From: an endosymbiont 'TC1' of Trimyema compressum | GTDB taxonomy: Bacteria; Bacillota; TC1 | Reading direction: 5' to 3' | DNA length: 64,000 bases | Assembly: GCF_001584725.1 (NCBI RefSeq) | Contig: NZ_CP014606.1 | Location: 1,455,501 to 1,519,500, forward strand | Shown: piece by piece, positions 14,367-57,562 of the stretch | Layout: each line of letters begins with the position of its first letter | Numbering within the stretch: the first letter of the stretch is position 1 | Notes under the pieces: model-generated | The model's database searches: none | What the model saw: the letters and a program-made list of their open reading frames with translations, nothing else | What the model was told of the DNA's origin: nothing | Made by a program: the position numbers and the translations under genes

Positions 14367-14405
14367 AAAAAGGGACTGTAGATATATATCTACAGTCCCT
14401 TTTTT
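14367..14405. terminator. Terminator hairpin after the glucosaminidase gene
   Basis: A perfect self-complementary stem from AAAAAGGGACTGTAG through a central TATATA to CTACAGTCCCTTTTT. It lies 30 bases downstream of the minus-strand gene, with an A/T run on both sides. Confidence 0.85.
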
Positions 14406-17455: not shown

Positions 17456-18811
17456 ATGGAAGAAACAACAATTGCAAATATTATTACACCTCTTTATGAA
17501 AGTGGCGTTGGTATTATTCGAGTAAGTGGCAGTCAGGCCTTATCAATCGTTGATGACCTCTTTACCCCTGTCAATCAAAAACGCTATAGTAAAAAGGAAA
17601 CCTTTACCATTCACTTAGGTTATATTAAAGATCAAGAAACAGTTTTAGATGAAGTATTACTCTTACTAATGAAAGGTCCAAATTCCTTCACTGGAGAAGA
17701 TATTGTAGAAATACAGACTCACGGTAACCCCTTTATCTTAGACACCATTCTAAAACTCCTTTTAAAAAAAGGTGCAACTTTAAGTGAAGCAGGAGAGTTT
17801 ACTAAAAGAGCCTTTTTAAATGGGCGTTTAGACTTATCTCAAGGGGAAGCAATCCTTGATGTGATTCAAGCTAAAAATAAAAAGTCATTGCAAATGGCCT
17901 TAAACCAGCTGGAAGGTGGTCTCTCTAGTAAAGTTCATAATATTGAAAAAGACACCCTTTCCATGATTGGATTTTTAGAAGCTTCTATTGATTTCCCTGA
18001 AGATGAAATTGATAGTGTATTCTCAAAAGAAGATTTAAAAAAAACCATCCATCAGATTATTAAGGAAATTAATGGTTTACTAGAAACTTATCATGATGGA
18101 AAAATCTTAAAAGAAGGTATTACTACTGTTTTAGTAGGTGCCCCAAATGTTGGTAAATCAACACTCCTTAATACACTGCTAAAAGAAAACCGGGCTATTG
18201 TAACCCATATTCCTGGCACAACAAGGGATAGTATTGAAGAAAAAACCACAATAGGAGATTTAATTCTTAACTTAGTAGATACGGCTGGTATTAGAGATAC
18301 TGAAGATGCTATTGAAAAAATAGGAGTTGAAAAAACTTATGATTACATTGAAAAAAGCCAGTTGATACTTTTCCTCTTAGATAGTACAAAAACTGTCAGT
18401 AATGAAGAGCAACAATTGTTAGATAAAATAAAGAAAATGAAAAAACATTATCTCATTCTCAACACAAAAATAGATTTAGCTAAAAATACAGACAATTTAA
18501 TTGAAAATAGTCTTCCTATTTCTGCAAAAGATAATTTAGGAATTAAAGATTTAGAAAATGCTATTAAAAAAATATTCTTACACAAAAATGAAGAAAATAT
18601 TTACTTAACCAATTATCGCTATTATGAAGCATTAGAAAAAAGCAAAAAAGCCTATTTACAAGCATTAGAAGCACTAGAAAGTGCTATGCCTTATGATTTA
18701 GTATCAATCGATTTAAAAGAAGCTTTCGAAGCACTAGGCATTATTACAGGCACAGCACTTCAAGAAAATTTACTCAATGAAATATTCTCAAAGTTCTGTA
18801 TTGGGAAATAA
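17456..18811 (+). CDS. mnmE: tRNA uridine-5-carboxymethylaminomethyl GTPase MnmE
   Basis: Partner of MnmG in wobble-uridine modification of tRNA, 451 residues. N-terminal tetrahydrofolate-binding domain; G domain with GAPNVGKS (228-235), DTAG (Asp275) and NTKID; the C-terminal FCIGK carries the catalytic Cys. GGAGG precedes the ATG. No lesions. Confidence 0.96.
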   Translation: MEETTIANIITPLYESGVGIIRVSGSQALSIVDDLFTPVNQKRYSKKETFTIHLGYIKDQETVLDEVLLLLMKGPNSFTGEDIVEIQTHGNPFILDTILKLLLKKGATLSEAGEFTKRAFLNGRLDLSQGEAILDVIQAKNKKSLQMALNQLEGGLSSKVHNIEKDTLSMIGFLEASIDFPEDEIDSVFSKEDLKKTIHQIIKEINGLLETYHDGKILKEGITTVLVGAPNVGKSTLLNTLLKENRAIVTHIPGTTRDSIEEKTTIGDLILNLVDTAGIRDTEDAIEKIGVEKTYDYIEKSQLILFLLDSTKTVSNEEQQLLDKIKKMKKHYLILNTKIDLAKNTDNLIENSLPISAKDNLGIKDLENAIKKIFLHKNEENIYLTNYRYYEALEKSKKAYLQALEALESAMPYDLVSIDLKEAFEALGIITGTALQENLLNEIFSKFCIGK

Positions 18812-18826
18812 ATAAGGAGGGAAACT

Positions 18827-20710
18827 ATGGCAAATAGTAAAAAGTATGACGTAATAGTTGTTGGTGGTGGTCATGCAGGCTGTGAAGCAGCCTATGCAAC
18901 TGCAAAAATGGGACTTAAAACACTATTGGTTACATTAAGTGTTGAAACCATTGCTTTAATGCCCTGCAACCCATCTATTGGTGGTTCTGCTAAAAGCCAC
19001 CTTGTTTTTGAAATAGATGCTCTAGGTGGCTTAATGGGAAAAATTGCTGATAAAACTGCTATTCAAAAAAGAATTCTAAATCAAGGTAAAGGACCTGCTG
19101 TTCATGCTCTTAGAGCTCAGGTTAATCGCTTTAAATATAGTAGAAGAATGATCTCTTTTCTTGAAGGCGTCCATAATCTAGCTATTGTACAAGGTGAAGT
19201 AACTGCTTTACATGTAAACAATCAAACAATTAAAGGGATTGTATTAAATACGGGCTTAACATATAAAGCTAAAAGCGTTATTTTAACAACAGGAACTTAC
19301 CTTCGTTCAAAAGTGATTATCGGGGATTTCGAAAAGAATATTGGCCCTAATGAAATTACAAGTACTTTTGAACTATCAGAAAATTTGCATAATTTAGGTT
19401 TTAATACTATGCGATTTAAAACAGGAACCCCACCAAGACTCGATAAAAGAACGTTAGACTATGCTAAGCTTGAGGTACAGTTAGGAGATGCAGATTATTA
19501 TACTTTCAGTTTTTCTGAAAATATAGTGGAAAATCCACTGCCTAAAATTCCTTGCTACTTAACCCATACCTCAAAAGAAACAAAAAAAATAATAGAAAAA
19601 AACCTTCACCGTTCGCCCCTTCTTTCAGGTATTATTGAAGGGGTAGGACCTAGGTACTGTCCTTCTATTGAAGATAAAACAATCCGTTTCCCAGATAAAA
19701 ATACCCATCACCTTTTTATTGAGCCAGAAGGCGAGGATGTAAATGAAATGTATTTACAAGGTTTTTCAACTAGCTTACCTGCTGATGTTCAAGAAGAAAT
19801 GGTCCATTCTATAACGGGTCTTGAAAAAGCCCATATTATGAAATTAGCCTATGCAATTGAATATGATGTTATTCATGTTGAAGATCTTCATTTAACACTT
19901 GAATCAAAAAAGATTGAGAACCTCTATTTTGCTGGTCAAATCAACGGAACATCAGGTTATGAGGAAGCAGCCGCCCAAGGATTAATAGCTGGCATAAACA
20001 GTGGTTTAAAGCTTCTGAAAAAGGAATCCTTTATTTTAAGACGCAGTGAAAGCTATATTGGTGTATTAATCGATGATTTAGTAACAAAAGGTACCAAAGA
20101 ACCTTATAGAATGTTTACTGCTAGAGCAGAATATCGTTTGCTCTTAAGACAATCCAATAGTGATCGACGATTAACAGAAAAAGCCTATGAACTCGACTTG
20201 ATTAATTATGCTCAATTTATAGCTTTTAAAGAGAAAATAATGCGCATTAATGCTGAAGTAGAACGTCTAAAAGAGCTTTCCATTTCGCTCAAAAATGAAG
20301 CAGTAAAAAATCTCCTTAAAGAAAAAAATAGCACACCATTACAACAAGGCATTAAAGGTGGTGATTTACTTAAAAGACCAGAAATAAAATATATGGATTT
20401 AGAAAGAATATTCCCTCCTGAAGTGGAGTTATCCTATAAGGAAAAGGAAGAAGTTGAGCTCCTTATAAAATATGAAGGATATATTAAAAAACAAATTGAA
20501 CAAGTTGAAAAGTTTAATAAAGGAGAAAAGAAAAAAATCCCTCATGATTTAATAGATTATAATCAAGTAAAAGGGCTACCTAGAGAAGCTATAGATAAGT
20601 TAAATCAAGTTAAGCCAATTTCTGTTGGGCAGGCTAGTAGAATTTCTGGTATTACACCAGCAGACATTCAGGTGCTCTTAATTTACTTAGAACATAAAAG
20701 AAGGAGCTAG
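18827..20710 (+). CDS. mnmG: tRNA uridine-5-carboxymethylaminomethyl modification enzyme MnmG
   Basis: FAD-dependent subunit of the MnmEG complex, 627 residues. FAD-binding GGGHAGCEAA (13-22), MPCNPSIGGSAK, and the conserved GTSGYEEAAAQGLIAGIN near 380. The C-terminal helical MnmE-binding part is complete. It lies 15 bases after mnmE. Confidence 0.97.
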   Translation: MANSKKYDVIVVGGGHAGCEAAYATAKMGLKTLLVTLSVETIALMPCNPSIGGSAKSHLVFEIDALGGLMGKIADKTAIQKRILNQGKGPAVHALRAQVNRFKYSRRMISFLEGVHNLAIVQGEVTALHVNNQTIKGIVLNTGLTYKAKSVILTTGTYLRSKVIIGDFEKNIGPNEITSTFELSENLHNLGFNTMRFKTGTPPRLDKRTLDYAKLEVQLGDADYYTFSFSENIVENPLPKIPCYLTHTSKETKKIIEKNLHRSPLLSGIIEGVGPRYCPSIEDKTIRFPDKNTHHLFIEPEGEDVNEMYLQGFSTSLPADVQEEMVHSITGLEKAHIMKLAYAIEYDVIHVEDLHLTLESKKIENLYFAGQINGTSGYEEAAAQGLIAGINSGLKLLKKESFILRRSESYIGVLIDDLVTKGTKEPYRMFTARAEYRLLLRQSNSDRRLTEKAYELDLINYAQFIAFKEKIMRINAEVERLKELSISLKNEAVKNLLKEKNSTPLQQGIKGGDLLKRPEIKYMDLERIFPPEVELSYKEKEEVELLIKYEGYIKKQIEQVEKFNKGEKKKIPHDLIDYNQVKGLPREAIDKLNQVKPISVGQASRISGITPADIQVLLIYLEHKRRS

Positions 20711-20714
20711 TTAG

Positions 20715-21416
20715 ATGACAATTGATACTTTAAAAGAATATGCTGATTTAAGTGAAAAACAGCTCTATCAGTTTAGCCAATACTATAGTCTTCTAACTTT
20801 TTATAATAAACAGTTTAATCTAACTGCCATTCGAAATCAAGATGAAACCCTTATAAAACATTTTGTAGACTCCATTATCTACAGTGAGATGGCTATGCTA
20901 AAAAAAGGTAACAGGATTCTTGATTTAGGAACTGGAGCTGGGCTTCCTGGAATTCCATTTTCCATTCTTTATCCAGAAAAAAAAATTCTTTTAGTAGATT
21001 CCTTAAATAAAAAAGTAAATTTTTTAAATACAGTTATAGAAAAACTTAATTTAAAAAATACAACAGTTCTTCATGCTAGAGGCGAAGCCTTAGGAAGAGA
21101 TGAAAACTATCGAGAAAGCTTCCAAATTATTTTAGCACGTTCTGTAGCCTATTTACCAACCTTAAGTGAATATCTTCTACCTTTAGTAAAAGTTGGAAGC
21201 TACTGTATTGTAACTAAAGAAGCACCTTATGAAGAGGAAGTTGAAAAAAGCAAAAAAGCTATTAAACTTCTAGGTGGTAAAATTGATATAATAAGAAATT
21301 ATACACTCCCTGTCTACAATAATGAGAGAGCCATTATCTACATAAAAAAAGAACAAAAAACACCAAACATATATCCCCGAAAAGCAGGCACCCCAAAGAA
21401 AAAACCACTATTCTAA
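20715..21416 (+). CDS. rsmG: 16S rRNA (guanine-527-N7) methyltransferase
   Basis: SAM-dependent methyltransferase, 233 residues. SAM-binding motif ILDLGTGAGLPGIPFSIL (about 70-87), then KILLVDSLNKKVNFL. The C-terminus is basic and Pro-rich. It starts 4 bases after mnmG and closes the conserved block. Confidence 0.94.
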   Translation: MTIDTLKEYADLSEKQLYQFSQYYSLLTFYNKQFNLTAIRNQDETLIKHFVDSIIYSEMAMLKKGNRILDLGTGAGLPGIPFSILYPEKKILLVDSLNKKVNFLNTVIEKLNLKNTTVLHARGEALGRDENYRESFQIILARSVAYLPTLSEYLLPLVKVGSYCIVTKEAPYEEEVEKSKKAIKLLGGKIDIIRNYTLPVYNNERAIIYIKKEQKTPNIYPRKAGTPKKKPLF

Positions 21417-21455
21417 CAGTGTTGCCAATAGAACCTTTAATGAAGGAGGCATTTA

Positions 21456-22232
21456 ATGAGTTATTTTTACTTTGAAAACAAGAAAATATATTACAAAGAA
21501 AAAGGTTATAGAAGGCCTTTGCTTTTACTCCATGGAAATGGTGTCTCTTCAACTATGTTCTATAGCCTCGCAAAAAAATATGAAAAAGACTATAACGTTG
21601 TTTTAATTGATTTTCTTGGTCATGGAAAATCAGAAAGACTTCAAGCCTTTCCAACGGATTTATGGTATTATGAAACTCTACAAGTACTTGCTTTTATAAA
21701 TGAAAAAAATTTGATAAAATAAATCTCATTGGAATAAGTGGCGGGGCTTTAGTTGCAATTAATATTGCATTAGAAGCACCCCATTTAATAAATAAGATAG
21801 TAGCCGATAGTTTTGAAGGAGAGAAATCACTTAAACCAATTATTGATTATTTAATTTATGAAAGAAAAAAATCTACACACTCTATAAAAGCGCACTTTTT
21901 TCAATATTTCATGCATGGCTTTGATTGGCAATCAGTAATTGAAAAAGATACCAATGAAATTGTAAAACACCAAAAAGAAATAGGCTATTTTTTTCATAAA
22001 AAATAGAAACTTTAAAGCCAGAGATTCTATTAACAGGTAGCATGGAGGATGAATATTTTACATTATTTTCACCAAACCATCTTAAAAAAAGTATGAAAAC
22101 ATGCTTTTAAGAATTGGTCATGGAAAAATACACTTATTTGAAACAGGAAAACACCCCTCTTTACTCTCACAAGAAGATTCCTTTTATAAATTAAGTAAAA
22201 TTTTTTCAATCACAACATATTTAAACGCTTAG
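21456..22232 (+). pseudogene. Alpha/beta hydrolase, frameshifted
   Basis: Joined frames give an oxyanion-hole region RPLLLLHGNGVSSTMFYS, then VVLIDFLGHGKSER, the nucleophile elbow IGISGGALVA (Ser), then an acid region PEILLTGSMEDEYF and IGHGKIHLFE with the His. This is a complete 255-residue alpha/beta hydrolase plan. Shifts near 21715, 22005 and 22100, mostly in A or T runs. Substrate unknown. It ends before a strong terminator. Confidence 0.8.
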
Positions 22233-22272
22233 ATACAATAGCTCAAGAAATCCATGTTCTTTAATTTTAAAC

Positions 22273-22312
22273 ATAGCTTCTTGATATACAAAAATCAAGA
22301 AGCTATTATTTT
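22273..22312 (+). terminator. Intrinsic terminator after the hydrolase gene
   Basis: ATAGCTTCTTGAT and ATCAAGAAGCTAT (13 base pairs, 8-base loop) followed by TATTTT. Confidence 0.85.
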
Positions 22313-22435
22313 GCAAAACTGTATGCTTCAGTAAACTCACATTGGCACATATTTTTCATCCAGTAATTCAGATCATAATAAAATAAGAAATGCCTTTCAT
22401 ATTTTTAAATTCCATATATATTACTACTTTCTTTC

Positions 22436-22631
22436 TTAATTTCCAAGCAAAGTATTTAAATCACTTTCAAGAGCATTACAAATATTTAAACAAAGCTTTA
22501 AACGTTGGATTACTATAGTTACCCGCCTCAATTAAATTAATTGTCTGCCTTGCACATCCTGCCAATTCTGCTAATTCTTCTTGTGTATAACCTTTTTGTT
22601 CTCTTTTACTTCTAATTAAGTCTTTTTTCAT
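22436..22631 (-). pseudogene. Short XRE-family regulator, one-base frameshift
   Basis: MKKDLIRSKREQKGYTQEEL, then AELAGCARQTINLIEAGNYS, then NPTFK, and after a shift near 22500 LCLNICNALESDLNTLLGN. This is the standard 66-residue YozG/HipB-like helix-turn-helix regulator with a typical LESDLNTLLG end. Only one lesion. No partner gene is recognisable next to it. Confidence 0.72.
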
Positions 22632-23002
22632 TTAATTAACTCCTATTCTAACTTTAGTTAAAGAGCAAAATTCTCATTTTTTATTAAAAACTAAAACAAA
22701 AAAGGAAGCTTTTATTTTCAAAGTTCCCTTTATTCATTAGTATTTTTTACTGCTCTTTTTAGTATATCGGTAAACTCAACAACATAACTTTACCATTCTT
22801 CTAATAACAAATTTTCTCCTATTATCACAGAATACTATTTATTCATTTTATAAAGAATAGAATTTTATTTTTCAGGTTTATTCAGTTGACATTTATTCAC
22901 CTTTAATATTATTTCTTATGATTATAATCTAATTATCTTTTGATGAAAACTTGAACATTTTTTACTGCCTAAAAACGGGCTTTTTTATTTAATTTTCTAT
23001 AT

Positions 23003-23314
23003 CTATATTTTTGAGAATAAAAAATCTTTTTTATCTAAAACTATATCTATTACAATAGCATATGATTCTACTATACTATCATCCTTAACAATAAGAAGAA
23101 CCTAATGCTTTTGCCTCTTTTCTATCCATGACTTGCCACGTTGTGATAAAATATTAAGACTTTCAACATATCCACCATACTCACCTTTTCTGATTAGATG
23201 ACCTTAAGTGTATAAAAATTTTTTAAAGCTCCTACAGCATACAGTTTTACCCCCCCCCTTAAAATTAATATACTTGTATTCTGCAAGCTCATATTTATAT
23301 GGTTTTTGCTTCAT
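23003..23314 (-). pseudogene. Remnant of a phage-type hexapeptide-repeat protein
   Basis: The minus strand reads MKQKPYKYELAEYKYI, then after a shift the pattern KGEYGGYVESLNILSQRGKSWI, then DDSIVESYAIVIDIV. This resembles proteins that start with a basic strand, continue G-x-x-GGYIES-x-x-NLS and go into left-handed beta-helix repeats. Stops follow YT and RQKH. Highly decayed; the family call is tentative. Confidence 0.4.
23252..23260. repeat. Run of nine C
   Basis: Nine consecutive C in an AT-rich neighbourhood, inside the decayed gene at 23003-23314 (G run in its reading direction). A slippage-prone tract. Confidence 0.9.
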
Positions 23315-23585
23315 TGTTATATCATCTCATTTCTTACACAAACTGAATTATAATAGCATAAGACATTTAATGTCTTACATTTAGATTTTATGGTTGCTAA
23401 TAATAGCAATCTTTAATTATAGAAAAGACTAGCTATTATATATAATAAGTTGAAAGTCATTAAAATCTATTTACTTCTTATTGTTATGTAACAAAATATA
23501 AATATTCTTCACTCTTTCAATACCCATGTTGTTAGTCACAAGTAAACTACATAACTTCTAAATCCTATAATTTATAAATTATGAT

Positions 23586-23836
23586 AATCAAAAGCTAATG
23601 AAACTTTTGATTAATACTAGTTTCTACAGATTAGCACAATAAGCCCTAGCACTAACTTATTGTAATCTAGCGTTATCTTATAGGACATGTAAAGATATAA
23701 ACCTTACGTGACGCTACGTCCTGTATTCATTAATATGATAATAAATACGCTCCCTATGCCTAGTAATATCCAGGAAGGATTTTAATCAATATTTAATCTA
23801 GTTGCTTTCACCTAAGTTTAGAACTAGATTGTTTTA
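23586..23836 (+). ncRNA. Hairpin-rich segment, candidate structured RNA (strand uncertain)
   Basis: Hairpin 1: AATCAAAAG 23586-23594 with CTTTTGATT 23604-23612. Hairpin 2: AGATT and ACAATAAG (23628-23632, 23636-23643) pair with CTTATTGTAATCT 23656-23668, leaving a 3-base bulge. Hairpin 3: AGGAC 23682-23686 with GTCCT 23718-23722, enclosing GTAA and TTAC. A last stem AATCTAGTT 23795-23803 with AACTAGATT 23822-23830 is followed by GTTTT, like a weak terminator. No ORF explains this spacing. It matches no RNA class I can name. Confidence 0.35.
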
Positions 23837-24140
23837 AAAGATCAAAGTTTCTAGCTACCTCATTTCAGGGTGGCTTATTTCTTCTTTGCTTCATACTACA
23901 GTCTCCAGACATTATTAAAAAAACAAAAGCTTGTTTTCTTAAATAGTGTATAAGGTACTGCTGCTAATAAAAAATAAATTTAGTATATTTTTTATTATTA
24001 ATGATGAAAAAACTAAGTGTAAAAATAATTTTATTTACTATTAAATGCTACTTGAAATAATTGCTACAGAATGTAGTAGATAAAAATTAAGTGAATATCA
24101 TATTTTTATGATAATTTGGTAATAATATTTGTTTTTTAGG

Positions 24141-24169
24141 TTGATTGTATATTTTTTCTATGCTAATAT
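24141..24169 (+). promoter_or_regulatory. Promoter of the candidate small RNA
   Basis: TTGATT at 24141-24146, 17-base spacer and TAATAT at 24164-24169. The predicted start is near 24176. Confidence 0.55.
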
Positions 24170-24175
24170 GTACTT

Positions 24176-24284
24176 AGAGGTTACGTTTATTAGTAAATAG
24201 GCATAATTATTGCGTATTTACACGTATCTTTTGTTTTAAAAATTGTTACTCTGCTTTGCAAGGGTTGGGGTAACAATTTTTTAT
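24176..24284 (+). ncRNA. Candidate small RNA of about 105 bases
   Basis: Between the promoter and a terminator lies a nested stem. TACGT 24182-24186 pairs with ACGTA 24222-24226. GTAAATA 24193-24199 pairs with TATTTAC 24215-24221. GCA 24201-24203 pairs with TGC 24211-24213. The 3' end is an intrinsic terminator, AAATTGTTAC pairing with GTAACAATTT and then a T run (24238-24284). The loop of the terminator is G-rich (AAGGGTTGGGG). No start codon with a ribosome site is seen. Function unknown. Confidence 0.5.
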
Positions 24285-24570
24285 TTTACTTTTACAAGTT
24301 TAAAGTTTTTTGGGCATTTGTCAACTGTTAATGTTTATTGTACCTAAACGCTTTATTAAAGCTCAATTAAAATAGTCAGATTATTTTCTCACAAGAGAAA
24401 AATATATTTTTTCACTCTAATTTATTTACTTCGAATATACAAAAAACTTTGCTTAAAAAACATTACTTCTCAGTAAACACTTAAATAATAAAAGAAAGAC
24501 CTGGATTCATGCAAACCCTTCTTTATAACTCAAATAGTAAATTGACATGATAACCTTCTAATAATTTAAT

Positions 24571-24634
24571 AAGCAACAAAAAAGAATATTTATTATCTAG
24601 AAGTAAATACTCTTTTTTGTTCAAAGGGTTGCTT
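24571..24634. terminator. Long hairpin downstream of the DUF4064 gene
   Basis: AACAAAAAAGAATATTTA (24575-24592) pairs with TAAATACTCTTTTTTGTT (24604-24621) with one mismatch, flanked by AAGCAAC/GTTGCTT. It lies about 60 bases past the stop of the minus-strand gene and is probably its terminator. Confidence 0.55.
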
Positions 24635-24691
24635 ATATTCTTAAATATTTTTCTAAGTAGCAAAACCCTTTTTAATTCATTTTTTAGTTTT

Positions 24692-25108
24692 TTATTCTCC
24701 CTCTTTTACATACTCTAGTTTTTCATCTTTATTTTTTTTGAGGATTAATAAGAATCCTGCAACAATAACTAAAATATTACTAATACAAAAGCCAAAGCCA
24801 AAAAAGAATCCTAAAACGCCACACATTAAAAATATAATACCGCAAATGAGGGGTGATTTATCCTTTTTAATCATTATTGATGTTATTAAAACAATAACAG
24901 ATAAAACACTACATACAACAATAGAAATATATGTCTGATTAGTTATATCTGCAACATATTTATTTACATCCGTTATACCTGAACTTTTTAGAGCTGATAA
25001 CATCATAGGTGATTCAAATGCACTTAGACTTACAAATGATATAATAATTGCAATAATTGCAATAACAATAGCTACAATTCCAAGTACAAATTCTGTTTTT
25101 CTTTTCAT
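24692..25108 (-). CDS. DUF4064-like small membrane protein
   Basis: 138 residues, four membrane helices and a charged tail (KKNKDEKLEYVKEGE). The start MKRKTEFVLGIVAIVIAII matches the K-R-x-x-EF-x-LG opening of DUF4064 proteins. GGAGG precedes the ATG. It follows the ABC-2 permease gene by 22 bases, so probably one operon. Function not known. Confidence 0.6.
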   Translation of the reverse strand: MKRKTEFVLGIVAIVIAIIAIIISFVSLSAFESPMMLSALKSSGITDVNKYVADITNQTYISIVVCSVLSVIVLITSIMIKKDKSPLICGIIFLMCGVLGFFFGFGFCISNILVIVAGFLLILKKNKDEKLEYVKEGE

Positions 25109-25130
25109 AAAATACCTCCATTAATATTTC

Positions 25131-25732
25131 TTATTTTTTATATTTTTTTACAGTATATGTAATTAATGAAACACAGAGAACAATTGCAAGTATTGGTAAA
25201 ACAATATATGCAAAGGGCTCTACTATGGTCATAATACTTATCCCTAATTGATTATTAATAATTGATGATAGAATTATAGCAGGATAAAAAATACAATAAC
25301 CATTTGTGCATCATTATAGTTTCTAACATGAAAAAAAGTTGTATATAAAGCAATACAAATATATATTAATGATAAATAAACAAGTATTTCTTGCATATTA
25401 AAACCAGTCCCTGAAAAACTTGTATATATAATCATTAGTACATAGGCAATTACAACAAATAGAGTTGCTTCAACATATTTCGAAAGTACAATATATAGTT
25501 TTTTTACAGGCAAAGACTTTAATAACATCCTTGTACTAGCGTTATCTTCCGTATAACACATTTTGCCAATAAATAACATAGCTGCTAACCATGGAAAAAT
25601 AAACCAACCACCAAATCTCATATTATCTTGAGAGTAGAAATAATTAGCAATAAAAAAACCAAAAACAAATCCCAGAGAAATTACAAAGTATTTAAAATTA
25701 AAAAGTATATCTTTCTTAATTAATTGAAACAT
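25131..25732 (-). pseudogene. ABC-2 type transporter permease, frameshifted near the end
   Basis: MFQLIKKDILFNFKYFVISL opens a six-helix permease with the conserved element KMCYTEDNASTRMLLKSLPV, typical of ABC2_membrane_5 proteins. A shift near 25280 separates the last two helices (AIILSSIINNQLGI, then PFAYIVLPILAIVLCVSLIT). ATG 25732 follows GGAGGCGCTAAA. Just upstream, codons ending at 25791 (NLIDGQRVIEN) look like the very end of an ABC ATPase, whose body is gone. Confidence 0.65.
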
Positions 25733-25850
25733 TTTAGCGCCTCCATTTGCAAAAACTAAGATATCATCTAAATTATAAGTATTTCTATTATTAATTCTCA
25801 ATAACACGTTGTCCATCAATTAAATTAAAAATTCCAAAATTTATTTTGCA

Positions 25851-26428
25851 TCACTTATATAGTTTAAATAAAAAAATCATTCATAATAACATCATACGCC
25901 AACTGTTTACAGTAAGCACAGAAGTAATTACAAATGACTAGCATGTTGATTTTATATATTTTTTGCTACAAATAAGGTTAACAAAATCATCATTTAAAAT
26001 AGATTATACAACTGTTTTTTATATTTTTATATTATATACTCATCAAAAACTACATGCAAGTATTTTTGTTAAAAAAATGAAAAAATATATATTTTTTCAT
26101 TTTCATTCTTTCCTTGCATTTGAATAATATTTTCAATTCCATGAATATAAAATTTCTAATAATCCATATGCATACAACTGTTCAATAAAATTATTCACAA
26201 ACTAACACCTCCAAATCTATATTTCACATATAAAAATTTAGCCTGCAATCTTTAAACATAATTAATAAAAATTAATTAAAGTTTTTATAATTAGTAAAAA
26301 AGATCTATTTAATTATTATGAATTGACAGAATCATAAAAAATAGCATACAATTATACTATTATTGAATTAATAAAAAGGAGGATTGTTTGTCAATTCAAA
26401 ATTTAATAAAAATAGGAGGAGCTATACA
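25851..26428. other. AT-rich spacer of about 580 bases, no gene recognised
   Basis: Runs of A and T with several long T tracts. The ATPase partner expected upstream of the permease is absent. AGGAGG at 26414-26419 belongs to the next gene. Confidence 0.5.
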
Positions 26429-27104
26429 ATGAAAAGAAAAAAGTCATTTAATACAATGACATTTTTAATTACATCTTTATTTGTTGCTATAATATTATTG
26501 ATGGCATTCACACCTATTGGTTATCTACAACTAGGATTAATTAAGGCCACTATTATTACAATACCTGTTATTTTAGGGCCCCATTATTTTAGGACCTAAA
26601 ATTGGTGGATTACTTGGCCTTCTTTTTGGTTTTACAAGCTTAATTAGCAATACTTTTATGCCAGTACTATTATCCTTTGCTTTTTCCCCTTTTATCCCTA
26701 TACCAGGTACGGAAAATGGCAGTTTATTGGCATTGGTAGTTTGTTTTCTACCTCGTATTCTAGTAGGCATTGTACCCTACTATGTTTTTACAATCCTACA
26801 AAAGTTAACCAAAGGCAATTCAAAATTCGAAGCGATATCTTTATCTATTGCTGGTATTGCTGGTATTGCTGGTATTGCTGGTATTGCTGGTATTGCTGGT
26901 ATTGCTGGCGCAATGACAAATACCTTATTAGTCATGCACTTAATATTCTTTCTCTTTCAAGATGCTTATGCCTCTATTAAGGAAGTTTCAGTACAAGTTC
27001 TATATGGTGCTGTTCTTTCTATTGTTGGTACAATAGGCATCCCTGAAGCCCTCATTGCTGCTGTTGTTACATTTGCTGCTGGTAAGGCTCTACTTACCTT
27101 ATAA
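26429..27104 (+). pseudogene. ECF transporter S component, probably for pantothenate, frameshifted
   Basis: About 225 residues, six helices: MTFLITSLFVAIILLMAF, then IKATIITIPVILG, then after a shift at 26580 GPKIGGLLGLLFGFTSLISN, then FSPFIPIPGTENGSLLALVV, then AMTNTLLVMHLIFF and GTIGIPEALIAAVVTFA. The E-x-x-x-A/TNT pattern is typical of S components of energy-coupling-factor importers. The lesion is one extra C in CCCC. Its place directly before coaX and coaBC suggests pantothenate as the substrate (PanT-like; inference). It contains the IAG repeat at 26847-26909. Confidence 0.75.
26847..26909 (+). repeat. Seven-copy 9-base tandem repeat encoding (Ile-Ala-Gly)7
   Basis: ATTGCTGGT repeated six times exactly and a seventh time as ATTGCTGGC. 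It lies in a membrane helix of the S component, just before AMTNT. Because the unit is 9 bases, copy changes keep the frame. Confidence 0.95.
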
Positions 27105-27133
27105 AAAAGAGGGCCAATTGAAAAGAGACGAAT

Positions 27134-27878
27134 AATGGTACTTTTAGTTGATATTGGGAATACAACAATATCCCTTGATCTTTTTAAAGAAAAAACTTTA
27201 TAAACCAATTTCATTTGGCACCTATGGTGATTTAGAGCTCTTAAAAAGTGTTTGTTTAATAAAAATAAGGTTATCCATAATTGCTTTATTTCTTCAGTTG
27301 TCCCTAAACAATCTCAAGTATTTTCTCAAATTGTAGAGGAAACATTAAATTTAACACCTATTTTTGTAGATACTACTTTTAAGAGTAATATAAACATTGG
27401 CTTAGAAAACCCAGAAACCCTTGGCAATGATCGATTTGCTAATAATATTGGTGCTCAAAGCCTTTACCCAAATAAGCATTTATTAGTTATTGACTTTGGA
27501 ACTGCTATTACCTATGACTACATAAATGAAAATGGTATTCTGTCTTTTGGGCTTATTACTCTAGGCATTGAATCTACATTAAAAAGCCTTTCTCAAAATA
27601 CGGCTCAGCTACCTCAAATTGAGGCACTTCAAAAGAAGGGATTCTATACAGGGAAAAACACTAAGGAAAGCATTGCTGCAGGACTCTATTATAGTAAAAT
27701 TGGCGAAGTTAATCACATAATTAATTCTTTAAAATAAGAATTAGGTATTGATAATCTTTTAGTAATTGCTACTGGCGATCATGCTTCCTATGTCTCCGAA
27801 GGAACAAAACTAATTAATCAAGTTGAACCTAATTTAATTTTTAAAGGTTTAGAAGTGCTTTATAAAGAGAATATATAA
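27134..27878 (+). pseudogene. coaX: Type III pantothenate kinase, broken
   Basis: First step of CoA synthesis from pantothenate. N-terminal phosphate motif VLLVDIGNTTISLDLF, then shifts near 27200 and 27250, then FISSVVPKQSQVF, GLENPETLGNDRFANNIGAQ, VIDFGTAITYDYI and GLITLGIESTLKSLS, all CoaX hallmarks. An in-frame TAA at 27735 (after IINSLK) precedes the last 47 codons, which still read as CoaX (LLVIATGDHASYVSEGT). Three independent lesions. Confidence 0.88.
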
Positions 27879-27892
27879 AAGGAGAACATCCC

Positions 27893-29052
27893 ATGAAAAC
27901 TATTGTTTTAGGTGTCTGCGGCGGCATTGCTGCTTATAAGGTATTGGAAATAACATCCAGCTTAAAAAAATTAGATTATGATGTTCATGTGATTATGGCT
28001 AAAAATGCAACAGAATTTATCAGACCATTATCCTTTCAATCAATTAGTGGTAATGAAGTAATAACAGATATGTTCATAAAACCAACATCATTTAATATAC
28101 AACATATTTCATTAGCAAAAAAGCAGACTTATTATTAATAGTACCTGCTACTGCTAATATTATTGGAAAAGTTGCTAACGGTATTGCAGGTGATATACTT
28201 TCAACAACTGTTATGGCAACAAAAGCGCCCGTTATTTTTGCACCTGCTATGAATACCAACATGTACAACAATCCAATTTATAAAAAAATGAAGCTTATCT
28301 AAAATCCACAGGCTATTATTTTATTAATCCCTTATTGTGGTGATATTGGAGCAGGAAAGCTGCCTTCTCCAGAAGCTATTGTTGACTACATCCGCAGCTT
28401 AATAAGCCATGTTAAAGATTTAAAAGGTAAAAAAATACTTATTACGGCAGGACCTACACAATCCAAACTTGATCCTGTTCGTTATCTTTCAAATTTTTCT
28501 TCAGGAAAAATGGGTTATGCACTTGCCAGAGAAGCTAGGAGTAGGGGAGCCTTTGTTACCTTAATTAAAGGGCTAACACAGCTTAAAGAAATCCCTTACA
28601 TTAAGACTATGTCTGTAACTACAAACGAGGAAATGAAAAAAGAAATAGATGCAATTTATGAAGAAATGGATATTGTCATTATGGCAGCAGCGGTATTAGA
28701 CTATAAAATTAAGGATTTTTCTAATTCTAAAATTAAAAAAACAATGAGAAATTAAATCTTCAACTCATAAAAGACCAAAATATTCTTAAAACATTAGGTG
28801 AAAAAATCCCACCAACTTTTAGTCGGTTTTGCTGCTGAAACTAATAATCTAATGGACTATGCAATGAAAAAATTAAAACTAAAAAACCTTGATTACATTA
28901 TTGCAAATGACATTACTATAAAAAATAGTGGATTTTCTAGTGACTATAACACAGTCTCTGTTCTATCAGCAGATGGCCGTATTAACCATCTTAACAAACA
29001 AGAAAAAAGCAATCTTGCAACTAAAATATTTGATATTCTTTTAAAAAAGTAA
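27893..29052 (+). pseudogene. coaBC: Phosphopantothenoylcysteine synthase/decarboxylase, broken
   Basis: Bifunctional CoA-pathway enzyme. CoaC half: VLGVCGGIAAYKVLEITSSL, then PATANIIGKVANGIAGDILS, then APAMNTNMYNNPIY. CoaB half: KILITAGPTQSKLDPVRYLS, then NFSSGKMGYALA, VIMAAAVLDYKI, LVGFAAETNNLMDYA, and a final NKQEKSNLATKIFDILLKK. Shifts near 28120, 28290, 28330, 28745 and 28800, including a stop after MKLI. Length (about 387 codons) is normal if repaired. It follows coaX by 14 bases after AAAGGAG. Confidence 0.9.
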
Positions 29053-29078
29053 AAGTATAATATTTATAAATATTAAAT

Positions 29079-29681
29079 TTACATTGCTGCAATTAAGCTA
29101 ATCACTTTTCCAATAACACGGAATCTTTTTCCCACATCATCAATAGTAAAAAATAATTCTTCACCTAAGCCATTTAAATCAAAATACAACTTAGTATCTT
29201 TAATTTTAATGCGCCTTATATTAATTTTTTCACTACCTTCTAAGACAATGGCCAATACATCTCCATTAAAAAATTTTTCTCGACGTCTTATTAATACGTA
29301 TTGATCTAAAAGGATTTGACTGATAGCACTATGATAATATAATCTCCCTTCATCTCCCAATCGATAAAAGAAAAAATTACCTGCGCCAAAAACACTGCAG
29401 GCAAATCGAAAGTAGGTTATAACATTTTCATCTGATAAAAATGGTTTTTCGCCTATGAAGTGGCTCACTAAGGGAATTCTAAATTCTCTAGTTGATAATT
29501 CTTCAACACTTTCTGCTATTTTCTCTTCATTTCTATCAATGCCTAGTAAATATTCACTAGTTACATTAAAGATAGCTACAATTTTCCTAATAGTAGCATA
29601 GTCCATTTCTCTTTGATCGTTAACATATCTAGAAACTGATTGTTTACTTACTCCCAACAAACCACTTAACTGGACATATAC
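29079..29681 (-). pseudogene. Cro/CI-type repressor with S24-like C-terminus, 5' end lost to an IS
   Basis: The remaining part reads QLSGLLGVSKQSVSRYVNDQ, then REMDYATIRKIVAIFNVTSE, then YLLGIDRN: the second half of a helix-turn-helix domain. A C-terminal all-beta domain follows, of the LexA/CI-like sort (SAISQILLDQYVLIRRRE, then GDVLAIVLEGSEK). The first 25 or so codons, including the first helices, are missing. Upstream codons are IS sequence (MFHFFLSTFLVYV). The missing 5' part is not found beyond the other IS end. Confidence 0.75.
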
Positions 29682-29748
29682 TAAAAAAGTAGACAGGAAA
29701 AAGTGAAACATGTTTTAAATAAGTAGACACATAAGAAAGGATAAAATT

Positions 29749-30030
29749 ATGAATAATTACAAGAAATACGATGAAGAATTTAAAAAAAGTATTGTTAATT
29801 TACACCAAAACGGTAAAACTCAATCCCAACTTTCTAAAGAATATGGTGTCTCCATGTCTGCTTTACACAAGTGGATTAAACTTTATTCTCAGGTTAGAAT
29901 TGATGATGATACTATTCTAACCGCTAAGCAGATTAAGGATCTTCAAAAGCGTAATGCTCGACTCTAGGAGGAAAATATCATTTTAAAAAAAGCAATTGCC
30001 ATATTCACGCCTCACTCAGACAAAGATTAA
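29749..30030 (+). pseudogene. IS3-family OrfA, nonsense codon
   Basis: MNNYKKYDEEFKKSIVNLHQ, then NGKTQSQLSKEYGVSMSALH, then KWIKLYSQ: the helix-turn-helix of IS3 OrfA. LQKRNARL is followed by an in-frame TAG (29965) and then EENIILKKAIAIFTPHSDKD, the leucine-zipper end of the family. The stop overlaps the orfB start as TAATG. Confidence 0.85.
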
Positions 30031-30805
30031 TGGCTGTTCATACCCTTCGTTTTCAGCACGCTATCTCTTTTCTTTGTCATGTCCTTAAAGTGAACCGCAG
30101 CTCCTATTACAAATACTTTTCGGAAAAACTTTCTCCTAGAACTATTGAGAATTAAAAACTCCGTCAGCTTATTCTCGGAGATTTGTCATCTTACTAAGAG
30201 ACGTATTGGCCCATCTAAGATTAAGGCTCTTCTTTCCTATGACTATGGCATCAACATCAGTATTGGTAGAGCGAGCCGCCTGATGACTGACATGAATCTT
30301 CCTAAAATGCCTACTATCAAACTTCGGTTTATTCATCCGAGGTCTATTCCCAATTTTGATTGCCCTAACTACCTAAATATGGATTTATTTTCTCGTAAAA
30401 TTATTGCTTGGAAGCTCTCTCTTAAAATTGATACTTCTCTTGTTAAGGATACTTTTATCAAAGCCTTTTATTCTCAAAAACCTTCTACTTCTCTTATTTT
30501 TCATTCTGACAGAGGTTCCTAATATACTTCTTTTATCTTTAGAAAGCTCCTTGATTCTTTTGGTATCATTCAATCTTTTTCTAAGCTTTCTCATCCTTGG
30601 GACAATGCTGTCGTTGAGTCCTTTTTAAATATATGAAAAAAGAAGAAATTCTTCGTAGGTCTTTTTCTTCCTTTGCTCAAATTAAGCTTTCCTGCTTTGA
30701 ACACATTGAGGGCTTCTACAACCCCCTATACGTCCCCACTCTGCTAATAACATTCTTTCTCCTAATTCCAAAGAAGACTATTTTTTCACTTCTATTAAAA
30801 CTTAA
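30030..30805 (+). pseudogene. IS3-family OrfB transposase, deleted and frameshifted
   Basis: HTH_21 part (VLKVNRSSYYKYF, then LTKRRIGPSKIKALLSYDYG), then DCPNYLN joined directly to MDLFSRKIIAWKLS. The segment with the first catalytic Asp of the DDE core (WVTDITYI in relatives) is missing, an internal deletion of about 25 codons. HSDRGS (second Asp) and AVVESFFKYMKKEEI (Glu) remain. Stops and shifts near 30155, 30520, 30632 and 30725. Cannot be active. Confidence 0.85.
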
Positions 30806-30834
30806 TTTCACTTTTTCTATCTACTCTATTGACA

Positions 30835-31908
30835 TTCTTCCAAGCTAATGTATATGTTATGTCAATTTTTTCCCATACCGCATACAAAGTAACATCACTT
30901 GTTCCCATTGTAAATAGTGCTTCATCAGTATACTCTATATTTCCATCTTCTTGTGTTGACCAACCTATAAAAGTATTTTCATCACTTAAAAATTCATTTT
31001 TTGGTAAATTTTGACTTTCTCCTTCTTATGTAATAGTATTCATGGTTCCTATTCCACCATTACTATCAAATTTCATGGTGCTAACACCCTTTACTGTTAC
31101 ATATGAAATAACACTCCCAACCTTATTATTAGAGTCTATAATATCCATAGTTAATTTTTTCTCCAATAATTGAAAAATCAATGGGTTGTGTCTTTTTAGC
31201 TGTATAACCGTCTCTCAAATATGCTACTAAATTAGTATCCTCTGGTATTGGATCACCAATACTAATTGTTTTTCTAATTGGAGAGGCTAACTTAACAATA
31301 TCACAATCATCTATATATCCCTGTGCATGAAGATGGTAGTTACTAAAAGATATATATCTTTTACAATAATTAATTCTTGTTACAGAAGATTTTGCATTAA
31401 AATATCCATAGTGAAATGCCCATGAAAAAGCAGAATACAACTCAGTTAGTATTATTATTATCTACTGCATATTCATTATTCATCGAAATCACAGCATAAC
31501 TAGGCGCCCCTCCTGAATAATGCCAAAAAGACCATGAATAAAGAGCCCCCTCATCTGTTAATAATGTTTGACCTAACATTCCAGAACTATACGTATCACT
31601 ATCCAAACTATCAAAATTTTTTCCACTATGAGGCTTGGGATTAAGAATCCCTTCTCTACAAATTTTAATAGGTTTATGCGTTGATAATGACCACCCAGGA
31701 ACCTGTTCTTCATTTATTAAATTGCTATCTTCTATTGTATGCATAGTAAAATAATCAGATTCATCAAAACTCTTATTTTGAAGCTCTGTTGGATAAGGTA
31801 TAATTTGCGATCCTTGTATTCCATTTTCAATCAATGAACAACAAAACATCATAAAACCAACTAAAAACATTATTAATATTATTCCACAAAAATTTTTTTA
31901 ACATTCAT
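30835..31908 (-). pseudogene. Secreted protein with an InlB B-repeat, 3' truncated and broken
   Basis: ATG 31908 after AAGGAG. An N-terminal hydrophobic signal (MFLVGFMMFCCSL) is followed by about 270 residues I do not recognise (LYSWSFWHYSGGAPSYAVIS, then YCKRYISFSNYHLHAQGYID). Then comes a repeat of the InlB-B/Listeria-Bacteroides type: MKFDSNGGIGTMNTIT, then TFIGWSTQEDGNIEYTDEAL, then VTLYAVWEK. Coding is cut by the IS right after ITYTLAW. Shifts near 31890, 31440 and 31140 and a TAA after TIT. Surface or secreted, role unknown. Confidence 0.7.
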
Positions 31909-48720: not shown

Positions 48721-48734
48721 TTATTAATTAGAGT

Positions 48735-48766
48735 AATCTCTACTAAACATATGCTTAGTAGAGATT
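48735..48766 (-). terminator. Stem-loop after lipA
   Basis: AATCTCTACTAA and TTAGTAGAGATT (12 base pairs, 8-base loop) just past the lipA stop. The T run after it is weak. Confidence 0.6.
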
Positions 48767-48779
48767 AACCCTATTTAAC

Positions 48780-57047: not shown

Positions 57048-57562
57048 TTAATCCTTTAAATTATATCATATTATCTTCAATAAACAAAGGTAATTGTATT
57101 AAAAAGAAACCACTTATATTACCATTCTTACAAGGAAAATATGGATTTTATTCTTCACTTTATAAAGATAAGGCAGCCAAATTGGCTGCCTTATCTTTAT
57201 AAAGAAGTTTGATTAGGTAAATGCAATTTAAATTAGGAGCTTTTATGAAAATTATAATATTTTCATTGTACAAGTTTCCTAACGGACAATAAAGTTTCTT
57301 TGCAATAATTGCAAATTAATATTCACTTCAACTTATCTGACTTTATTATATACCCTAAAACATTAAATGTAAACAGAATTCTGATGTAAGATAATTAGAT
57401 TATCCTCAAAAAATCCCTTCCCTATAAGAAAATATCCTAAAAGTCATATTGTTTCCGATAGCTATTGGCAAACTTTTTCTTCAACTGATTTTCGATTATT
57501 ATTTTCTAATTCACAAATTTCGGAAGTATTGTTTGCAATTTGATGAAAATTTATCAAGTCTT
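57048..57562. other. Intergenic region of about 515 bases
   Basis: Holds a 47-base perfect palindrome (57158-57204) and a near-palindrome TTTGCAATAATTGCAAA at 57299-57315. No gene is seen on either strand. Confidence 0.5.
57158..57204. terminator. 47-base perfect palindrome, probable terminator
   Basis: Twenty-three complementary bases on each side of a single central A at 57181; the core is GATAAGGCAGCCAA and its complement. It lies past the 3' end of the minus-strand NTPase gene by 360 bases. There is no T run, so a protein-binding site is also possible. Confidence 0.5.

Follow-up and report, generated by a model that had tools for sequence, protein, structure and literature searches.

A putative pair of sibling small RNA genes in the endosymbiont TC1 of Trimyema compressum

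Locus and features of the element

The window, meaning the whole stretch of DNA analysed, comprises 64,000 nucleotides of contig NZ_CP014606.1 from the endosymbiont 'TC1' of Trimyema compressum, and it is AT-rich, with a G+C of 0.324. The source genome has 1.62 Mb in two contigs and is 96.88% complete. Upstream of the element studied here (24141-24285), there are mnmE-, mnmG- and rsmG-like genes (17456-21416), followed by broken frames. The mnmG gene was named by profile match and mnmE by an annotated match (45% or less to plasmid proteins), while the rsmG-like gene is one that we take to be such from its sequence. Several genes seemingly broken by frame shifts are located in the 21444-29052 part of the window, at 21444-22003, 27252-27737 and 27893-29052, presumably hydrolase-like, coaX-like and coaBC-like, respectively; these breaks are either real decay or indel errors of the assembly.

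The element occurs twice in the genome, and the copy in the window is called copy 1. Its features, with the evidence for each, are the following:

24062-24140, plus strand: upstream block kept between the copies (copy alignment), with one difference, at 24092
24096-24113, no strand assigned: perfect 7-4-7 inverted repeat TATCATA-TTTT-TATGATA, a possible but weak operator (sequence)
24141-24146, plus strand: -35-like hexamer TTGATT (sequence), identical in copy 2
24161-24169, plus strand: extended -10, TGC + TAATAT (sequence), identical in copy 2
24175-24233, plus strand: 5' hairpin with stems UAGAGG/CUUUUG, UACGU/ACGUA, GUAAAUA/UAUUUAC and GCA/UGC (predicted folds)
24234-24237, plus strand: U-rich linker, within the unpaired stretch 24232-24237 (predicted fold); 2 of 4 positions differ in copy 2
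24238-24287, plus strand: predicted intrinsic terminator, with stem 24238-24281 and loop GCA at 24258-24260, containing the G-rich segment 24260-24270
24288-24375, no strand assigned: downstream flank common to copy 2 but diverging (alignment), with similarity stopping at its end

Promoter and upstream block

A TTGATT-17-TAATAT promoter had been proposed in the sequence-only reading and is indeed present at 24141-24169. The spacer between TTGATT and TAATAT (24164-24169) is 17 nt, and the -10 is extended by TG at 24161-24162, one base 5' of it. The site matches 8 of the 12 consensus bases, below the 9-of-12 limit of the promoter scanner, and is therefore absent from the scanner's list. Sites with 9 or more matches numbered 48 in this AT-rich region versus 49.3 expected from shuffles. 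Since such sites are equally common in shuffled sequence and only 8/12 bases agree, the promoter match is weak and alone would not be convincing. From its position, transcription would start near 24176-24177.

Within the upstream block, the inverted repeat at 24096-24113 is not significant, as 133 of 1000 shuffled versions of the segment had an arm as long, and it may be a chance product. Beyond 24062 on the 5' side, indels and substitutions erode the similarity between the copies.

Predicted fold of the RNA

The segment 24172-24285 was predicted to fold with -33.6 kcal/mol and a z-score of -6.1, and none of 200 dinucleotide shuffles folded as well. Both parts are stable by themselves: z was -4.8 for the 5' hairpin and -5.4 for the terminator folded alone, with 0 of 300 shuffles as good in each case. 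Windows of 114 nt, 3196 in total, were also scanned for their deviation from a linear G+C trend, without shuffles; only five scored lower than the element, each located at 57.1 kb or 48.7 kb. Near-perfect palindromes at 57158-57204 (47 bp), 48724-48778 (55 bp) and 14367-14404 (38 bp) are among the strongest folds of the whole stretch, and they are probably bidirectional terminators.

The nested stem previously read from the letters (TACGT/ACGTA, GTAAATA/TATTTAC, GCA/TGC) was recovered in the predicted fold, together with an outer UAGAGG/CUUUUG stem that had not been listed. The hairpin contains an asymmetric bulge at 24187-24192 and an apical loop at 24204-24210. The intrinsic terminator was likewise reproduced, with a stem of 20 pairs and a T run (24277-24287) broken by one A.

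The role assigned earlier to the terminator did not hold. It had been described as having an exposed G-rich loop that could act as an antisense or anti-Shine-Dalgarno mimic, but most of AAGGGTTGGGG belongs to the 3' strand of the stem, and the predicted loop is GCA (24258-24260). According to the pair probabilities, only the Ts at 24265-24266 and the flanking As at 24260-24261 are often unpaired in the G-rich segment, so its Gs are mostly paired. Moreover, copy 2 has GACGGCGAGGG in the place of AAGGGTTGGGG, and few parts of the RNA are less conserved. Being mostly paired and not conserved between copies, the G-rich loop was rejected as an active site, and under the predicted fold a function through this segment seems unlikely.

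Coding potential and downstream genes

The sequence-only reading had also stated that the element has no coding frame. A frame of 31 codons does exist at 24178-24270, with no ATG, GTG or TTG at its head, and it is shifted and different in copy 2. On this evidence, the earlier view stands in substance, and non-coding appears to be the better reading of 24141-24285.

Attenuators usually consist of a structured 5' element with an intrinsic terminator behind it, so a cis-acting, riboswitch-like leader or attenuator controlling a gene further downstream was considered. The surroundings do not fit this layout, since the next ORFs of at least 130 aa behind copy 1 (24692-25108 and 25274-25819) are on the minus strand, and the DNA 3' of copy 2 holds mostly minus-strand pieces plus an unplaced plus-strand ORF of 80 aa. 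Furthermore, no competing antiterminator was found in the predicted folds of either copy, and Rfam gave no match at the gathering score and none convincing below it. A leader or attenuator is thus very improbable. With no conserved ORF in either copy and no obvious gene behind it on the same strand, a stand-alone small RNA is the likelier of the two. On the minus strand near copy 2, there are broken frames at L017:8385-9337, which we take from their sequence to be TnpB-like.

Second copy in the same genome

BLAST against the source genome located copy 2 at G000:C1:1445486-1445796 (L017:7487-7797), on the same strand and 34 kb away, with E 6e-85. Positions 24062-24375 align with L017:7487-7797 with 92.4% identity over 315 columns, and exactly two copies were found in the genome by both BLAST and covariance model R1. 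Copy 2 has the same predicted fold, with a z-score of -7.85 and 0 of 200 shuffles as good.

Differences between the copies are unevenly distributed: 3 of 174 columns differ in 24062-24235 and 22 of 140 downstream (Fisher p 4e-6, for a boundary chosen after looking at the alignment). One of the three is a T inserted in the apical loop, and apart from it the 5' hairpin of copy 2 is identical. The longest identical run has 116 columns and takes in the promoter and the hairpin's first half; when the differences were placed at random, such a run arose in 13 of 100000 trials, or in 383 of 100000 with neighbouring changes merged. All 38 stem pairs are standard in both copies. None is broken, 35 are invariant and 3, in the terminator, have a one-sided change, while compensatory changes, on both sides of a pair, amount to 0 of 38, a count that comes from two sequences of one genome, in which few if any would be expected. 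The promoter and the 5' hairpin look constrained, because they are nearly unchanged between the copies while similarity falls off in both flanks. Alternatively, the uneven divergence could stem from gene conversion affecting the 5' half.

Another explanation is raised by the surroundings of both copies, a part of the chromosome rich in insertions and poor in genes. The duplicated segment would then be a relic that no longer has a function, left over either from a mobile element that has decayed or from the control region of a gene since lost. Both copies are in decayed DNA. An IS3-type element is found at 29671-30842, and its other copy (L017:5800-7064), identical in DNA except for 92 bp missing from the window copy at 30378, is 423 bp upstream of copy 2. 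In addition, a diverged piece at about 22793-22893, upstream of copy 1, resembles the right end of the IS3-type element (73% over 102 columns), and the duplicated segment was not found in the relatives searched. Against this origin, no significant terminal inverted repeats were detected where the duplicated segment ends (223 and 226 of 500 shuffles gave equally good ones), only two copies exist, and the promoter and hairpin are preserved between diverging flanks, with the pairing of the terminator kept. A relic is therefore unlikely, while deserving some weight. A MITE or similar mobile element was rejected on the same lack of significant terminal inverted repeats and the presence of two copies only. 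A small RNA gene, as first proposed from the sequence, is the best explanation, and the preserved promoter and 5' hairpin of copy 2 add to its support.

Homologue and family searches

With Rfam 15 at the gathering score, only a tRNA elsewhere in the window was found and nothing at 24141-24285, where the best sub-threshold matches look like chance. A DNA search of the source genome and 60 others gave no convincing homologue outside the source genome. At E <= 10, some match was obtained in 56 of the 61 genomes; outside the source genome, the top hit was a 58-bp match in G035 to the linker and terminator of the query (E 0.001), and all others had E 0.003 or worse, which appears to be the level that chance gives in AT-rich DNA.

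Covariance model R1 gave one extra match in the 10 genomes of the order (G006, E 0.57), with little kept beyond the terminator. Across the phylum, 3 of 398 genomes had matches at E <= 0.001, namely the source genome, G396 (3.6e-5) and G102 (1.7e-4). The last two were not counted as homologues, since the alignments comprised the terminator alone in one case and the terminator plus an unrelated stem in the other. Phages and plasmids contained no match to the element, and no exact 24-mer was found in genome contigs nor an exact 21-mer in viral contigs, collections from which records near the source genome were perhaps left out.

A search for MnmE in genome contigs returned three distant loci, which were of no use. 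Between five members of the family and the frames of the window in 20701-30000, RsmG alone was common, and covariance model R1 found nothing in these five. The nearest genomes compared belong to another genus of the family, with RsmG about 51% identical; because of this low identity, no homologue would be expected by sequence in them. These relatives thus seem too distant for such a small RNA to be detected by sequence, and absence there does not imply a recent origin.

Possible targets and partner proteins

Antisense BLAST matches of the RNA in its own genome all had E 0.15 or worse, which is chance level. Six antisense places were read and none was convincing; one of them, early in an ORF (L029), is a 15-nt match with E near 1, as expected from chance. 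A same-sense match of 19 bp (95%, E 0.15) to the 5' end of the RNA was observed at G000:C1:1410096-1410114 (L018:5097-5115), inside a membrane-protein-like coding frame, and is probably due to chance.

A search for Hfq in the source genome gave no match, the same search being positive in 5 of 14 controls, including E. coli and B. subtilis. Since no Hfq match was found, Hfq-independent action was assumed.

Alternatively, the RNA could bind a protein, sequestering a regulator or polymerase, instead of pairing with other RNAs. Its single-stranded parts are short and AU-rich, hence poor for pairing, and it is the whole hairpin, beyond the loops alone, that is the same in both copies. It is not 6S RNA, as the genome has a separate one at another place (RF00013, 53.2 bits, over the Rfam cut-off and the only match in the genome), and no repeated binding motif is visible by eye in the RNA. 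A protein-binding role was judged decidedly unlikely.

Proposed function and comparison with known RNAs

Around 24141-24285, an orphan promoter (weak, 8/12) and an intrinsic terminator bracket a short, non-coding, structured segment. We consider it reasonably probable that this is a gene for a stand-alone small RNA and the sibling of copy 2, in a lineage-specific pair that would probably act in trans. Transcription from a sigma-70-type promoter with an extended -10 would begin near 24176 and yield an RNA of about 105 nt. Its 5' part would form a hairpin with an apical loop and an asymmetric, AU-rich bulge, and a U-rich linker would connect this hairpin to the terminator at the end. Acting in trans and without Hfq, the RNA would use the conserved bulge, the apical loop or the linker to pair with at least one mRNA. 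Transcription, the start site and the trans action of the sibling sRNAs are what we infer from this arrangement. A more specific version seems quite doubtful: the sibling sRNAs would be a species- or genus-specific pair, working in a genome that gave no Hfq match and answering to one signal through a shared upstream operator, with the 5' hairpin and its AU-rich bulge as the active part and terminators free to drift.

Small structured RNAs in intergenic DNA include 6S RNA (RF00013), which the element resembles in that respect; it differs in having about 105 nt, with a bulged hairpin and a terminator, and no 6S covariance match at 24141-24285. The tracrRNA of type II CRISPR systems has about 100 nt and ends in an intrinsic terminator, features that the element shares, whereas no Cas9 match was found in the 96.88% complete source genome. 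The closest known kind would be the sibling sRNAs. According to the review PMC4211561, PrrF1/PrrF2, OmrA/OmrB and the streptococcal csRNAs are sibling, that is duplicated, bacterial sRNAs, with two highly similar stand-alone genes per genome and the identity concentrated in part of the molecule, as is the case here. Unlike them, the element has no detected Rfam similarity and is known from one genome here and from sequence alone; the likeness is one of kind, with no claim to membership of a named family.

If expressed, the element would be a duplicated small RNA gene without a match in any collection searched, and the two copies would be well suited to studying how sibling RNAs retain one active domain while their remaining parts drift. 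As a regulatory RNA it is plausible but of an ordinary kind, and it opens no new mechanism.

Repeat tract in a nearby reading frame

The ORF at 26658-27104 is membrane-protein-like. It had no NCBIfam match, and we take it to be part of an ECF-type transporter. Seven exact copies of the 9-bp unit TATTGCTGG are located inside it, at 26846-26908, and encode a repeated Ile-Ala-Gly run; this tract is possibly length-variable.
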